Of a stretch of 35,648 bases of DNA, positions 4,213 through 19,651 are shown in pieces. This DNA comes from Candidatus Zixiibacteriota bacterium. Lineage in GTDB: Bacteria > Zixibacteria > MSB-5A5 > GN15 > FEB-12. Position 1 is the first letter of the stretch; every line of letters begins with the position of its first letter. The notes beneath the pieces are model-generated. The model was not told the DNA's origin. It saw only the letters and a program-made list of their open reading frames with translations, and did no database searches. The DNA lies in NCBI GenBank assembly GCA_034439475.1, contig JAWXAN010000060.1, positions 67,566-103,213 of the forward strand, given 5' to 3'. Position numbers and translations under genes: made by a program.

Positions 4213-5154
4213 TTAATTCCCGAATTTAAATGAGAGCGAAAATCTATGAAGGGCATCGGACGTGTAGGCGTCGTCCGGAGTAAAAGCGTAGTCAAATTCC
4301 GCAGATGAAATGCGTAGACCTGCTCCAAAAGATAAGGATGCCACGGTGTTATTCATCTCGGTCGTCAAATAATGGTCAAATCCTGTCCGCAGGAAATATT
4401 TTTGGCTGAATCCAAATTCAAGACCGTTTCTCATTACAGTTTCGCCGTAGAGATTTTTCAATAGATCAGCCGAGGCAACCATGAGGTCGTCAAAAGGTCT
4501 GACAGCGACCCCAGCTCGCACTGATGCCGGCAAGTTCTCATCTATAGCATCAAATTTCATCTTTGTGCCAATGTTGGTTGCAGCCAATCCGAATGTCACA
4601 AAAGGCATTGAATACTTGACGCCAAAATCGGCGGCGTATGCCGAGCCGCTGTATGTATCCAGTCTTTGATTGATGATTTTCCCGGTTGCGCCGACGGAGA
4701 GTCGTTCATTGATGGCCATGCCAAGAGAAATACCTCCCGCCCAGTCATAGGCTTGCAGTTCACCAATCACAACGCCATTTTCATTAAAGCTTTCGATCGT
4801 CCCATAGTTGAGGTAGCTTATTGAAGCCGCAACCGACAACCTCTCGGAAATAGGCATCGCGAAGCTTCCGTGCTCAATAGAAATATCCTGATACCAGGTA
4901 AAGTGACTGAGAAAGACTTCCTTATTCTCCAGATGTCCAAGGCCGGCCGGGTTCCAGTAGGTGGATACGGCTCCCTCAGAGAGAGCGGTGAATGCGCCTC
5001 CAAGTCCTGCCGCCCGAGCACCCATGCCTATTTGAAGAAAGTCAGCTGTCGTTCTGCTTGAGTTTTGAGCATAAAGAGGAACCGTTACCAAGAGTGATAT
5101 CAAAAACGGCACAATGCCATTTCTAATAGTGCGTACTAATCGTGCAATTTGCAT
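4213..5154 (-). CDS. PorV/PorQ (UPF0164) family outer-membrane beta-barrel protein
   Basis: A 313-residue predicted outer-membrane barrel. From the ATG at 5154 there is a good signal peptide (charged start, hydrophobic LISLLVTVPLYA, cleavage at about Ala30-Gln31). The mature N-terminus carries the family hallmark GARAAGLGGAF...STYWNPAGL, shared with the FadL-like protein at 11075-12583. The rest is alternating beta strands ending in FSLSFKFGN, a typical barrel terminus with aromatic residues. PorV proteins serve type IX secretion and surface attachment in Bacteroidota, but relatives occur in bacteria without that system, so the exact role is open. A longer frame runs to 5286, but the signal peptide and the GGAAGGG ribosome site support 5154. 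The upstream leader has alternative foldings (see 5161-5215). Confidence 0.85.
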   Translation of the reverse strand: MQIARLVRTIRNGIVPFLISLLVTVPLYAQNSSRTTADFLQIGMGARAAGLGGAFTALSEGAVSTYWNPAGLGHLENKEVFLSHFTWYQDISIEHGSFAMPISERLSVAASISYLNYGTIESFNENGVVIGELQAYDWAGGISLGMAINERLSVGATGKIINQRLDTYSGSAYAADFGVKYSMPFVTFGLAATNIGTKMKFDAIDENLPASVRAGVAVRPFDDLMVASADLLKNLYGETVMRNGLEFGFSQKYFLRTGFDHYLTTEMNNTVASLSFGAGLRISSAEFDYAFTPDDAYTSDALHRFSLSFKFGN

Positions 5155-5160
5155 AGTTGA

Positions 5161-5215
5161 ATCCCTTCCGGTTATGGTTATCTCCCCTTTATGCAAGGCC
5201 AGTGCCGGAAGGGGA
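5161..5215 (-). promoter_or_regulatory. Candidate two-state RNA leader sequestering the PorV-like ribosome site
   Basis: In the transcript, CCCTTCCGG (5213-5205) can pair perfectly over 9 bp with CCGGAAGGG (5171-5163), which contains the ribosome-binding site. The same left arm, as UCCCCUU (5215-5209), can instead pair over 7 bp with AAGGGGA (5189-5183). The two pairings exclude each other, which is the layout expected for a translational switch or thermosensor. No known riboswitch consensus was recognised. Pairing is read directly; function is inference. Confidence 0.35.
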
Positions 5216-5400
5216 CGGTTGCTGGTTGGCCGGAGATTAAATGTTGATCTATTGCTGTTGAGCATAACAACCAGTTGAGCCACCATCTGTTAAGCGAGTC
5301 ATAAAATTACAGAAACTATTTCTCCGCGCTAAAAAAGATCCGTCGAAGAATTGTCGGAGCTTATCTATTTGCTCCTTATTTGGACAGAGCGGTTCCCCAA

Positions 5401-5607
5401 TCAGACTTTGAGCAGGCCAAACGCCAACAACGCACCAGCTTCGGCCTCGCTGTTCAAAATCAGTATGCCTGTACTACTGTTTGTCGGAATATTGACTTGC
5501 AATTTGAGTATGTAATGGACAATATCCCACAATGTATTGGTTCGATTGTTTGTTAAGATTTTGAAGCGAATGGGCATTCTGCCGATATAAATAAGTACGA
5601 AGTCCAT
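5401..5607 (-). CDS. Small hypothetical protein
   Basis: A 68-codon open frame whose main support is an excellent ribosome site: AGGAG at 5618-5614, 6 bases before the ATG. The product has no recognisable motif, no signal peptide and only weak hydrophobic segments (about 50-68). It lies divergent from the lipoprotein at 5685, with 77 bases between that must hold the promoters. It may be a genuine small gene or a chance frame. Confidence 0.35.
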   Translation of the reverse strand: MDFVLIYIGRMPIRFKILTNNRTNTLWDIVHYILKLQVNIPTNSSTGILILNSEAEAGALLAFGLLKV

Positions 5608-5684
5608 GAGAAGCTCCTCTGTATGAGAAGGTTGGCGTGGTGACGAATTATAAATGAAGAGGGGCGTGTGAAAAGGAGATCAAA

Positions 5685-6428
5685 ATGAAGTTATCCGAAC
5701 GGATATTATTTTTGTTAACTGTGCCTATGGTACTTTCGCTTCTGGGTTGCGGCGGTTCTGATTCTCCAGTAGAACCACAACCGACTGGACCGATGCTTTC
5801 GATTAACAATGTCGCAGTAAACGAGGGATCGAATGCCGTCCTAATAGTTTCACTGAGCGAGACTGTCGGCCAAGCTGTAACATTTACCTATTCAACCTCG
5901 CCGGGATCCGCAACCGCCGCCGATTACACAGTCCAGACAAATGTTTCCGGGTCAATTGCGTCAGGCGCGACAACAACAACTATCACCATAGTCACCATCG
6001 ATGATGTCACTGCGGAAACCAGCGAAGCATTTTCGGTCGTCCTCTCCTCTCCTACAAATGCAGGAATTTCGGATGGAACAGGCTCAGTCACCATCAATGC
6101 CAACGATGGCGGCGCTGCAGGAGTTAGCTTCATGAATGATGTCCGTCCTATAATTACTTCCAGCTGCGCAATAGCCGCCTGTCATGGCGACGGCTCAAAT
6201 CAAGGCAGTCTGACTTTTGGGTCGGCCACATACCCTGAGGTGAGGAATGCAAATGGGGGCAGTGGTCCTATTGTTATCGTCGGTAACGCCGCCAGCAGTA
6301 ATCTGTACCTCAAAGTAACACCGACGCCGCCATTTGGATCGAGAATGCCAGTTGGGGGCCCGTTTCTTTCGGCAACTCAAATTAATCTTATCCGCGACTG
6401 GATAAACCAAGGCGCGCTGAATAATTAA
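5685..6428 (+). CDS. Lipoprotein with Calx-beta domain and cytochrome c-like heme site
   Basis: A 247-residue lipoprotein, the only clear plus-strand gene here. The signal ends in lipobox LLGC with Cys22. Residues about 38-140 form a Calx-beta repeat (LSINNVAVNEGSNAVLIVSL, then SATAADY and a TIDDVTAETSEAF strand). Residues 150-245 resemble the monoheme cytochrome-like domain common in uncultured and planctomycete-type bacteria: NDVRPIITSSC starts it, a C161-x4-C166-H167 motif would attach heme, and Met221 in SRMPVGG is a likely distal ligand before a final helix (INLIRDWINQGA). The heme spacing is CX4CH instead of the usual CX2CH. A near-perfect AAGGAG site precedes the ATG. Likely an exported electron-transfer or binding protein; substrate unknown. 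It has no partner gene on its strand. Confidence 0.8.
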   Translation: MKLSERILFLLTVPMVLSLLGCGGSDSPVEPQPTGPMLSINNVAVNEGSNAVLIVSLSETVGQAVTFTYSTSPGSATAADYTVQTNVSGSIASGATTTTITIVTIDDVTAETSEAFSVVLSSPTNAGISDGTGSVTINANDGGAAGVSFMNDVRPIITSSCAIAACHGDGSNQGSLTFGSATYPEVRNANGGSGPIVIVGNAASSNLYLKVTPTPPFGSRMPVGGPFLSATQINLIRDWINQGALNN

Positions 6429-6468
6429 GATTGTAGTCGGGTAGCACCTGTTCCGCGTTCCTGACATT

Positions 6469-6535
6469 TGTCGGGCGGTGCGATCTTATCTGTGGTATCG
6501 GGCGTCCCCGACGGGGCGGTTAGACTCGCCCGACA
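6469..6535. repeat. Inverted repeat TGTCGGGCG / CGCCCGACA with inner hairpin
   Basis: Nine-base arms at 6469-6477 and 6527-6535 are perfectly complementary. They enclose a smaller GC hairpin (CCCC-GAC-GGGG) near 6506-6516. It lies just after the stop of the plus-strand lipoprotein, in the gene-free space before the convergent M48 gene. No T-run follows, so it is not a standard terminator. Confidence 0.6.
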
Positions 6536-6545
6536 CTATGATTAA

Positions 6546-6572
6546 ACTGTCAGGCGGGGGCTGCCTGACAGT
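6546..6572. repeat. Hairpin-forming inverted repeat ACTGTCAGGC / GCCTGACAGT
   Basis: Two perfect 10-base arms separated by the 7-base loop GGGGGCT. It is the second of four palindromes in this intergenic space. It could fold on either strand and might slow or end both convergent transcripts. Confidence 0.65.
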
Positions 6573-6581
6573 ACAGACAGA

Positions 6582-6614
6582 GTACCCACCGTCCGCCACG
6601 GCGGAGTGGGGTAC
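6582..6614. repeat. Palindrome with TCCGCC-AC-GGCGGA core
   Basis: The core TCCGCC-AC-GGCGGA (6592-6605) is perfect. The outer arms GTACCCAC and GTGGGGTAC pair with a one-base bulge plus a short CG mismatch. The core is shared with the larger palindrome at 6668-6703, which suggests a repeat family instead of independent hairpins. Confidence 0.6.
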
Positions 6615-6667
6615 CCACGAGGTGCGGGAATTATAACATGAGATTGCCATCCAACGTGTCGGACAGC

Positions 6668-6703
6668 AAGTAGGTCAGTCCGCCGTGGCGGACTGACCTA
6701 CTT
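6668..6703. repeat. Perfect 17-bp inverted repeat
   Basis: The arms at 6668-6684 (AAGTAGGTCAGTCCGCC) and 6687-6703 are exactly complementary with only GT between, making a 36-bp near-cruciform. It carries the same TCCGCC/GGCGGA centre as the repeat at 6582-6614. It lies between convergent genes. No T-run follows on the minus strand, and only a short A-rich stretch follows on the plus strand. Confidence 0.75.
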
Positions 6704-6775
6704 AAAAGAAGGCAAAGCAATAACGGTGAGTGAGGGTTCAGCTTCGATAGCTTGTGTTCGTACCAGACCTACAGA

Positions 6776-7588
6776 TTATTTTTGGGCGGCTTTGGGAAGA
6801 CGAGCTTTCATTTGTTGGTAGCGTTCACGACCGTCTCGAAGATTTTTGGACAGTCCGCGCATTGAACTAATTTGCTCTTTCGCCCGGTCGATTCGTTCCT
6901 GGGTTTCAGGGTGTGAGCGAGACAACTTTTCAAACACATTGGTACTTGCGCCTGCACCGACCGCGGCAAGCTTATCAAACATTCCAATCGCGCCATTGGG
7001 ATTGTAACCGGCATTTTTCATATAATAGATTCCAAAACTGTCGGCCTCGCGCTCGGCATCGCGAGAATACCCGGCGAAAGCCACTCCCATACCGATATTA
7101 ATTGCTGCCGCAAGCACCTCGCTTGAATTCCCGCCTAACACCAGTTGCGAGGCCAGCCCTACACCGAGTGCGGTCTGCACTCGTTTCACTCCATGCCGGG
7201 CAACTACATGAGAAATTTCATGGGCCATCACCGCCGCCATTTCGGCCTCGGATTCCATATGTCTGAGCAGACCAGTGTAAAAATAAACATATCCACCGGG
7301 CGCGGCGAATGCATTGACATCATCAGATTCGATGACGGTAAAATGGTACACTATGTCTTTCCGGTCGCTCACAGCAACGATTTTATTGCCCACTTCGGCA
7401 AGGTATCTTTGCCACTCCATATCTTTGAAGGTTTTTTCAGTCGAAGCGACTTGCTTGGCCATTCCTGCGCCGATTGCGATTTCCTGGCTCGTAGGGATAA
7501 TAATAAATGATTTGTCTCCGCCGGGGCCGGTTGTGGCGCATGATGTAAAAAGTGCTGCAACGAGGATGGAGAGGATTAAATATCGCAT
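6776..7588 (-). CDS. M48 family zinc metalloprotease, lipoprotein
   Basis: A 270-residue membrane-anchored peptidase of the M48 family (BepA/YcaL-like), which degrades or refolds damaged outer-membrane proteins in related bacteria. From the ATG at 7588 the signal ends in lipobox LFTSC (Cys17). The zinc site is HEISH at 123-127, with the third ligand probably Glu181 in EREADSFG. A conserved AFAAPGGYVYFYTGLL stretch at 93-108 matches the M48 core. The start at 7588 is preferred because it gives the lipobox, has AGGAA 5 bases upstream and lies 7 bases after the previous stop; a longer frame starts at 7624. It is the last gene of the TPR-GH57-membrane protein operon. There is no C-terminal TPR domain, unlike BepA. 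Confidence 0.92.
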   Translation of the reverse strand: MRYLILSILVAALFTSCATTGPGGDKSFIIIPTSQEIAIGAGMAKQVASTEKTFKDMEWQRYLAEVGNKIVAVSDRKDIVYHFTVIESDDVNAFAAPGGYVYFYTGLLRHMESEAEMAAVMAHEISHVVARHGVKRVQTALGVGLASQLVLGGNSSEVLAAAINIGMGVAFAGYSRDAEREADSFGIYYMKNAGYNPNGAIGMFDKLAAVGAGASTNVFEKLSRSHPETQERIDRAKEQISSMRGLSKNLRDGRERYQQMKARLPKAAQK

Positions 7589-7595
7589 CCGATTC

Positions 7596-8030
7596 CTACA
7601 GGTTTGCCTTGTCTGCCAAATCACCGATGACAGGCAAGCGATGGTTTTTTCCCTGAAGGGCGAAGTAAATCCCCGCAGCGGCTAAGCCCAGCGCGGCGAC
7701 CAGTAGTCCCCTAAACACAAAGTCAGCGATACGGTCAATAGAGAAAAGGATGGCAAGCATTTCTATGAAGAAGAGAACGACACCCTGACGGGCATGAAAA
7801 TAGACCTGTTTGTTTTGCCGCATATTCATAAGAGGTATAAAACAGAGAAATGGCACATAGGCCATAATCGCGGCTACACGGGTCTCTTCATTGAGAAATT
7901 TCGCCTCTGCTTTTTCGGAGACAGAAACATTGATAACCACATCGTCCGCGGTTGTAGTGGTCGACGCATCGACGCCTGGCTCCACTGTCGGGTTATGAAA
8001 AAATGACTCGTTTGGATTCTGTTCTTCCAT
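7596..8030 (-). CDS. Small membrane protein, DUF4870-like
   Basis: A 144-residue protein. The first 45 residues are polar and Thr/Val-rich. Then come ETRVAAIMAYVPFLCFIPLM and QVYFHARQGVVLFFIEMLAILF, a pattern matching the DUF4870/Tic20-like group (a short loop with YFHARQG between helices), and two further hydrophobic segments at about 100-125. Three or four helices are likely. GAGG lies 5 bases before the ATG. A CCGCGT/ACGCGG hairpin without T-run sits in the 45 bases between GH57 and this gene. The function of the family is unknown. Confidence 0.75.
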   Translation of the reverse strand: MEEQNPNESFFHNPTVEPGVDASTTTTADDVVINVSVSEKAEAKFLNEETRVAAIMAYVPFLCFIPLMNMRQNKQVYFHARQGVVLFFIEMLAILFSIDRIADFVFRGLLVAALGLAAAGIYFALQGKNHRLPVIGDLADKANL

Positions 8031-18323: not shown

Positions 18324-18966
18324 GACCATTTCTCTTTTCATATTTCGAGCTAAGCGAGAATCTGCTTTCCGTGCCCGAGGCAAGCCGGACAATATTTTCG
18401 CGGTGGGTGTATACGATCAGCAAAGCGAGGGCTATGGATAGATAGATGTAGACCGATGCGATAGGCATCGCGAAAATAAATTTCTGAATGAGCAGGGTCA
18501 CGACAAGACAGATCCCCCCGAGAAGCGACCCAAGCGAGATATAGTGAGTGAGGGCGACGATAACAATAAACACCGTTAGCGCGACCAGCGCCTGCGCAGG
18601 CACAAGGGCAAAAAGAACGCCAAGCGCCGTATTCACACCCTTTCCTCCGCGGAAGGCCAGATACACTGGGAAAATGTGGCCAAGAACCGCAGATAAGGCG
18701 CACAAGACTAGAAAAATATCTCGATCCATAAATGTTTGATTAAATGCACGGGCTATCATTATCGCCGCTATACCCTTGCTTATATCCAGAATGTAGACCC
18801 AGATGGCGACTTTAGGTCCGGCAACACGCCAGACATTTGTCGCGCCGATATTTCCGGAGCCCAGCGCACGGATGTCTGTTATTCCGCGGGACTTGGCAAT
18901 AAGCAGTCCAAATGGAATCGCGCCGAGAAGGTATGCGAGGAGGATGGGGATTATTATATCAAGCAT
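18316..18966 (-). CDS. plsY: Glycerol-3-phosphate acyltransferase PlsY
   Basis: A 216-residue inner-membrane enzyme that acylates glycerol-3-phosphate from acyl-phosphate. Visible family motifs are GSGNIGATNVWRVAG and FRGGKGVNTALGV, among about six or seven hydrophobic helices, and a basic tail. The start at 18966 (MLDIIIPILLAYLLGAIPFG) fits the family; another ATG at 18996 would add ten residues, and neither has a strong ribosome site. The C-terminal coding end overlaps gpsA by 8 bases. It follows a small membrane protein gene. Confidence 0.94.
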   Translation of the reverse strand: MLDIIIPILLAYLLGAIPFGLLIAKSRGITDIRALGSGNIGATNVWRVAGPKVAIWVYILDISKGIAAIMIARAFNQTFMDRDIFLVLCALSAVLGHIFPVYLAFRGGKGVNTALGVLFALVPAQALVALTVFIVIVALTHYISLGSLLGGICLVVTLLIQKFIFAMPIASVYIYLSIALALLIVYTHRENIVRLASGTESRFSLSSKYEKRNGHA

Positions 18967-19590: not shown

Positions 19591-19625
19591 AAAAGAAAAC
19601 CCGTCTTTCCTTGCGAAAAGACGGG
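19591..19625 (-). terminator. Rho-independent terminator after rplQ
   Basis: The minus strand reads CCCGTCTTT-TCGCAAGG-AAAGACGGG followed by TTTTCTTTT: a perfect 9-bp stem with an 8-base loop and T-run, 26 bases past the rplQ stop. It closes the ribosomal supercluster. Confidence 0.92.
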
Positions 19626-19651
19626 TAAAATTGTCAAAGTATTGTTTTCAG

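Follow-up and report, generated by a model that had tools for sequence, protein, structure and literature searches.

A mosaic of REP elements from three families in an intergenic gap of a Zixibacteria genome

The intergenic gap and its hairpins

The stretch of DNA analysed here, referred to as the window in the following, comprises 35,648 nucleotides from a Candidatus Zixiibacteriota bacterium (G000:C60:67566–103213; assembly of 2.66 Mb in 82 contigs). It contains a gap at 6429–6775 that is flanked by two convergent genes, a Calx-beta domain gene on the plus strand (5685–6428; PF03160, E 5.3e-9), which stops at 6428, and a peptidase M48 gene on the minus strand (6776–7624; PF01435, E 9.9e-34), which stops at 6776. 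Two palindromes with arms of at least 8 bp are found in this gap, compared to 0.05 on average when 2000 sequences were drawn from its first-order Markov model; two such palindromes occurred in 4/2000 of these sequences and a 17-bp arm in 0/2000. With loops searched up to 8 nt, the sole other palindrome in the whole window with arms of at least 10 bp lies at 19599–19626 and has a loop of 8.

The original prediction had listed four perfect or near-perfect palindromes in the gap. Those at 6668–6703 and 6546–6572 are present as described, and the one at 6582–6614 is real but imperfect. The fourth, at 6469–6535, was rejected as a single palindrome: its 9-bp arms lie 49 nt apart and join arms of two elements. 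Its left arm falls in the right part of a degenerate REP of a family that we call C (6450–6485, plus strand; local alignment to a C copy, score 22 vs a maximum of 13.5 in 2000 Markov sequences), and its right arm pairs with the nearer arm, 6495–6504, of the first hairpin of a family A element. C-like alignment scores of 16–18 near 5881–5977 and 18781–18877 were set aside as probable coincidences in coding sequence.

The family A element is a REPIN-type doublet at 6488–6576 on the plus strand (nhmmer with the A profile, L016:1560–1648, E 1.1e-15, converted to window coordinates). Its first hairpin, A1, has arms at 6495–6504 and 6527–6536, of which 9/10 positions pair, and its second, A2, is the palindrome at 6546–6572 with 10-bp arms; a short AT-rich spacer sets the two apart, and the doublet is predicted to fold as a single DNA structure (z −3.91). 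It is followed by a family C REP at 6582–6614, given without strand, which carries GTAC at both ends and the tip TCCGCC-AC-GGCGGA at 6592–6605. This copy deviates from the exact C pattern, and its pairing is unbroken in the inner 6 bp only (DNA fold z −2.15). Further to the right, the nonamer GAGATTGCC at 6640–6648 on the minus strand corresponds to the tail of a repeat with a CGTC tag, and with just 9 nt to go by may tentatively be regarded as a scrap of a fourth family, D.

The last element, a family B REP at 6668–6703, likewise without strand, is perfectly palindromic, its 17-bp arms enclosing a centre of 2 nt. Its GTAG head (6670–6673) is mirrored by CTAC (6698–6701), its stem is formed by GTCAG/CTGAC, and its tip, TCCGCC-GT-GGCGGA, lies at 6679–6692; the segment 6664–6707 has a DNA fold z of −8.01. 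Both the B and the C copy in the window thus carry a tetranucleotide tag at both ends, and these tags pair with each other. The TCCGCC/GGCGGA centre that these two hairpins had been noted to share is there, at 6592–6605 and 6679–6692, but the families it sits in, C and B, are distinct, differ in their arms and lie beside different RAYT loci. Taken together, the evidence supports a description of the gap as a mosaic in which three REP families, A, B and C, are represented rather than one.

The hairpins had also been judged not to be ordinary terminators, and we agree: a scan of 6350–6850 returned no terminator-like site, with 0.6 expected in shuffles, and no T-run follows the hairpins. No sigma-70-like promoter site was found in the same interval, and no Rfam family matched in 5400–7800.

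Repeat families across the genome

With the gap as query, a blast search of the genome returned 95 matches, one of which is the gap itself (40/124 first-look candidates were scored in the follow-up). Family A has the layout GTGG-TGTCGGGCG..CGCCCGACAC, spacer, CTGTCAGGCG..CGCCTGACAG; its first hairpin occurs at 18 palindromic places, compared to 0 for a reversed control pattern, and the two hairpins, with their heads outward, recur together with the spacer, as expected of a REPIN. The loops of A hairpins often contain an extra insert (L017, L018, L019, L024, L025, L037), in some cases self-complementary; examples are CCCCGACGGGG and a piece that also occurs in other repeats. The family B pattern, GTAGGTCAG..CTGAC, yields 59 strand matches, which fall on 57 distinct places (reversed control 1), the family C pattern, GTACCAC..GTGTGATC, 45 matches (reversed control 0), and the pattern of the CGTC-tagged family D, CGTCATTGC..GCAATC, 33 matches (control 0). 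A, B and C are accordingly REPs in the usual sense of 20–40-bp palindromes with many dispersed copies. A GTAG-like tetranucleotide at one end, outside the stem, is present in B (GTAG) and A (GTGG); C has GTAC.

These counts bear out the proposal of a dispersed family of the REP kind, and the lack of further genomic copies that was to speak against it is not what we find, with 18 places for A, 57 for B and 45 for C. The exact 36-bp palindrome suggested as a probe is unusual: among the 57 B places, no other one matches the pattern on both strands. It was dismissed as the repeat unit.

In 19/82 contigs, a match to one of the families A–D lies within 500 nt of the contig start; about 2.4 matches would be expected there. 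Contigs thus tend to start at REPs, which probably limit assembly in this lineage, and because the assembly breaks at these repeats, the copy numbers given above are low estimates.

Transposase genes flanked by the same repeats

The search for a RAYT-type gene in the same genome was successful, as was the search for repeats of the gap's families beside it. Four loci match the Y1-transposase profile PF01797, three of them above the Pfam cut-off of 23. An intact RAYT at C18:64138–64407 lies between inverted copies of family B, at 63905 (plus) and 64498 (minus), and another intact one, at C6:15761–15991, between two A doublets that share one orientation. A RAYT fragment at C18:8672–8821, which with 22.4 bits falls just below the cut-off, lies between inverted single A-type hairpins; this locus (L049, L162) is separate from the intact A-type RAYT on contig C6. 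The fourth gene, at C39:4537–4797, contains one internal in-frame TAG and has family C copies at 4306–4338 (minus) and 5155–5191 (plus). All four loci (4/4) therefore carry REPs on both sides, A twice and B and C once each, so that the families found in the gap are also those bracketing the RAYT loci.

The assignment of these genes is corroborated by the NCBIfam profile REP_Tyr_transpos (NF047646, cut-off 80), which was run on three genes, the C18 fragment being the exception: the two intact genes scored 134.3 and 101.6 bits, and the part of the C39 gene before the TAG 66.3 bits. Furthermore, the C6 protein aligns to E. coli TnpA-REP (PDB 4er8) over residues 14–140 (E 1.6e-8), with the HUH and Tyr regions in register. 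Given its in-frame TAG, the C-associated RAYT on C39 is presumably dead. At this locus (C39:4306–5191; L046, L160, L254, L263) a C-D doublet is found on each side of the broken RAYT; in the downstream doublet, C is well kept only in the head-side arm. A dedicated RAYT for the CGTC repeats was not retained as a finding, as this one locus alone points to it, and is kept as a lead.

Stem conservation and placement of family B

The B stems are maintained by compensatory changes, as seen in the one family tested. In a set of 69 distinct 27-nt copies, the cells of the four inner pairs are Watson-Crick in 239/276 cases, compared to 135 on average and at most 157 when one side was shuffled 2000 times, a procedure that ignores relatedness; the five outer pairs are uninformative because the search pattern fixes them.

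With open reading frames of at least 110 aa as crude gene calls, B copies lie outside ORFs in 31/34 rows, where 14/34 are near a locus edge and the window copy is entered twice. We had to abandon the idea that they prefer convergent genes: with the window copy counted once, B lies between convergent genes at 3/16 scorable places, compared to 7/38 neighbouring gene pairs of the same loci, so that there is no excess.

Relatives and the RAYT tree

In the 450 bp downstream of their M48 gene, 0/29 relatives have a GTAG-type palindrome, and among the 30 loci compared it is seen at the own locus only. The M48 loci of 25 relatives have no palindrome with arms of at least 8 bp in this interval and the other 4 have unrelated ones; this comparison covers the M48 side, and hence is no empty-site proof. 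Absence from relatives had been named as grounds against the REP proposal. It does hold at this site, but the families themselves occur in relatives, and the site-level absence is for this reason what a mobile element predicts.

Across the order, PF01797 matches are found in 37/41 genomes, the own included. Family B has at least 10 matches in 12/41 genomes, again including the own (the 37/41 genomes with at least one match include genomes at the control level of 0–2 per genome), and family A is present in 4/41. At least three relatives (G012, G019, G020) reach 50 or more B matches. In 13/36 RAYT regions of relatives, judged by eye for perfect stems only and chosen mostly from genomes with several RAYTs, so that they are not a random sample, reciprocal inverted hairpins lie on both sides; some have none. 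Among the D places and RAYT places listed for relatives, inspection by eye found no RAYT beside a D element.

In a quick tree of 60 RAYTs, the class of the flanking REPs, assigned by hand to 38/60 rows (22 without class), changes 7 times with a minimum of 5, compared to a shuffled mean of 20.6 and 0/200 shuffles as low, in a tree where 29/57 inner branches are open and many are weak. One row labelled B, L055 (also listed as L169), is probably mislabelled, as a hairpin of another class lies closer to it. The own A-type RAYTs, L161 and L162, cluster with both A-type RAYTs found in relatives (support 88, with L162 less than half filled), and the own B RAYT, L159, falls in a branch with 14/15 B rows (support 98). 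The own C RAYT, L160, sits on a long branch in the same B-rich branch. Four MAG stretches matching the palindrome, one from a Planctomycetaceae genome, showed no match to the window beyond the palindrome itself (blastn, tblastx).

Shared tips and composite doublets

For the apical module TCCGCC-NN-GGCGGA we count 102 palindromic places in the genome (control 0); in the 40 relatives, the number ranges from 0 to 55 per genome. One instance, TCCGCC-GC-GGCGGA at L048:2983–2996, lies inside an open frame, identified by eye, whose start is near 2842 and which continues beyond the end of the locus; it resembles a HemW-type gene. For 46 of these centres the arms were viewed, using arm rules that were drawn up after viewing the list: two C arms were found at 9 places, two B arms at 7 and two type-F arms at 2, one or both arms fit no rule at 23/46, and 5/46 are hybrid hairpins with arms of two families (A/B twice, B/F, C/D and C/E).

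The families also occur next to each other more often than random scatter predicts. Within 120 nt, we count 9 C-D pairs (0.19 expected), 6 B-C (0.29), 5 B-D (0.24), 4 A-B (0.12), 4 A-C (0.09) and 1 A-D (0.07). The corresponding same-family counts are 0 for A-A, 0 for C-C, 1 for D-D and 3 for B-B, with patterns that are blind to A doublets as A-A pairs. Likewise, 11/19 A doublets have an end of another family within 80 nt, compared to 40/4916 random window places, a count biased upward because the own-genome loci were fetched using the gap as query.

Some of these neighbours keep a constant distance. Whole C-B doublets were found at six distinct places with a 22-nt spacer, identical in four of them; the remaining two differ by 1 and 3 changes. 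Their C tip is short or long and their B tip of the GATC or the TCCGCC type, in all four combinations: short/GATC in one copy, short/TCCGCC in two, long/TCCGCC in one and long/GATC in two. This points to an exchange or repeated replacement of tips within one composite unit; the copies number just six, and assembly error is possible. C-D doublets have spacers of 24–28 nt with several sequences, and those of D-B doublets mostly measure 15–16 nt.

Discussion

REPs are short non-autonomous palindromes that are probably copied or moved as single-stranded hairpins, and each family would have its own HUH single-tyrosine transposase, the RAYT, as its mover, as proposed for other REPs. We are confident in reading the gap as a landing place of several REPs, each family of which was probably mobilized by its own RAYT; the particular hairpins in the gap would likewise have been moved by RAYTs. 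The three dispersed families, the brackets around the RAYT loci, the covariation in B, the absence from the site in 29 relatives and the co-clustering of the families all support this reading. On the other side of the ledger, a 36-bp palindrome tagged at both ends is unusual for its family, and the window C copy is deviant. The hand-assigned classes and weak branches of the RAYT tree, and the mere 13/36 RAYT regions of relatives with reciprocal hairpins, also count on this side.

The original prediction also allowed for transcript ends or mRNA-stabilizing structures. That the hairpins serve the convergent gene pair in this way and are kept by selection at this place would fit the position of the gap, the predicted stability of its hairpins and published REPs, which are often located between convergent or unidirectional genes, as far as they are covered in PMC3733652. 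Yet the missing T-run, the failure to see the palindrome at the same place in any of the 29 relatives and the lack of enrichment of B between convergent genes make such a role unlikely, and it would account for neither the many copies nor the RAYTs. In the landing-place reading, the location between convergent genes would be tolerated rather than selected, and the hairpins, once landed, may incidentally affect transcript ends.

The fragmentation of this metagenome assembly, whose contigs break at the repeats as described above, raises the question of whether faulty assembly produced the copies or the mixed elements. This we consider very improbable: many copies lie inside contigs with differing flanks, relatives assembled on their own show the same families and the same bracketing of RAYTs, and the shared centre of only 14–16 bp is shorter than the usual assembly words. 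As small, dispersed inverted repeats, the elements also resemble MITEs of a DDE transposase, but RAYT genes flanked by the repeats, together with the GTAG/GTGG heads, leave this reading with hardly any credibility. We retain REPs, probably mobilized by RAYTs, as the best explanation for the gap.

Much of this has precedents. REPINs, inverted brackets and the co-evolution of REPs and RAYTs are already known (PMC3116915, PMC2817692). In Pseudomonas fluorescens SBW25, as far as set out in PMC3116915, one genome holds three REP groups with a RAYT beside each, and REPINs are inverted doublets. Our genome resembles it in having three REP families with RAYTs and inverted doublets as units, but its sequences are different, its lineage is distant and different families also pair at fixed spacing. 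From Stenotrophomonas, hybrid BIMEs and hybrid dimers are known (PMC2817692, PMC3733652), in which, judging from the available portions of these papers, REPs of two RAYTs or of two GTAG families join in one cluster, similar to our mixed pairs; unlike there, we see single hairpins with arms of two families (5/46) and tip classes in all combinations. In the REP literature searched, which leaves out most subscription journals, we found neither a single hairpin with arms of two families nor a test of tip exchange.

The GTAG and CGTC super-families and alternative loops within one family have likewise been described (PMC3733652). The GTAG head of B, the GTGG head of A and the start of D with CGTCATTGC are in line with these, whereas the tag of C is GTAC. 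As far as the accessible part of PMC3733652 goes, no dedicated transposase had been reported for CGTC repeats; in our genome, the broken RAYT on C39 is flanked by C-D doublets on both sides. Finally, E. coli REPs require a bulged stem, as outlined in PMC8266576, and the mostly unbulged stems of our elements are like its group 3, a likeness by stem only.

Beyond the gap, we propose tentatively, and with some doubt, that the REPs of this lineage are modular. The arms, comprising the head and the lower stem and presumably recognized by one RAYT, would be one part and the tips another; tips would be swapped between families, with TCCGCC-NN-GGCGGA as the commonest exchanged tip and crossover point; and mixed doublets of fixed spacing (C-B 22 nt, C-D 24–28 nt, D-B mostly 15–16 nt) would be composite units. 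As it is found on both sides of a RAYT, the C-D unit could give the CGTC repeats a transposase.

The REPs in this gap are of a known kind, in unusual abundance, with three families in one gap; what makes them interesting is that several families reside together and that their tips may be modular. A rich system of REPs and RAYTs is thereby placed in a bacterial order where 37/41 sampled genomes have Y1-transposase matches, and its many naturally occurring RAYT-REP pairs lend themselves to testing how specific each transposase is. Should tips be exchanged without regard to the arms, the head and the lower stem would be what RAYTs recognize, and recombination of parts could give rise to new REP families.
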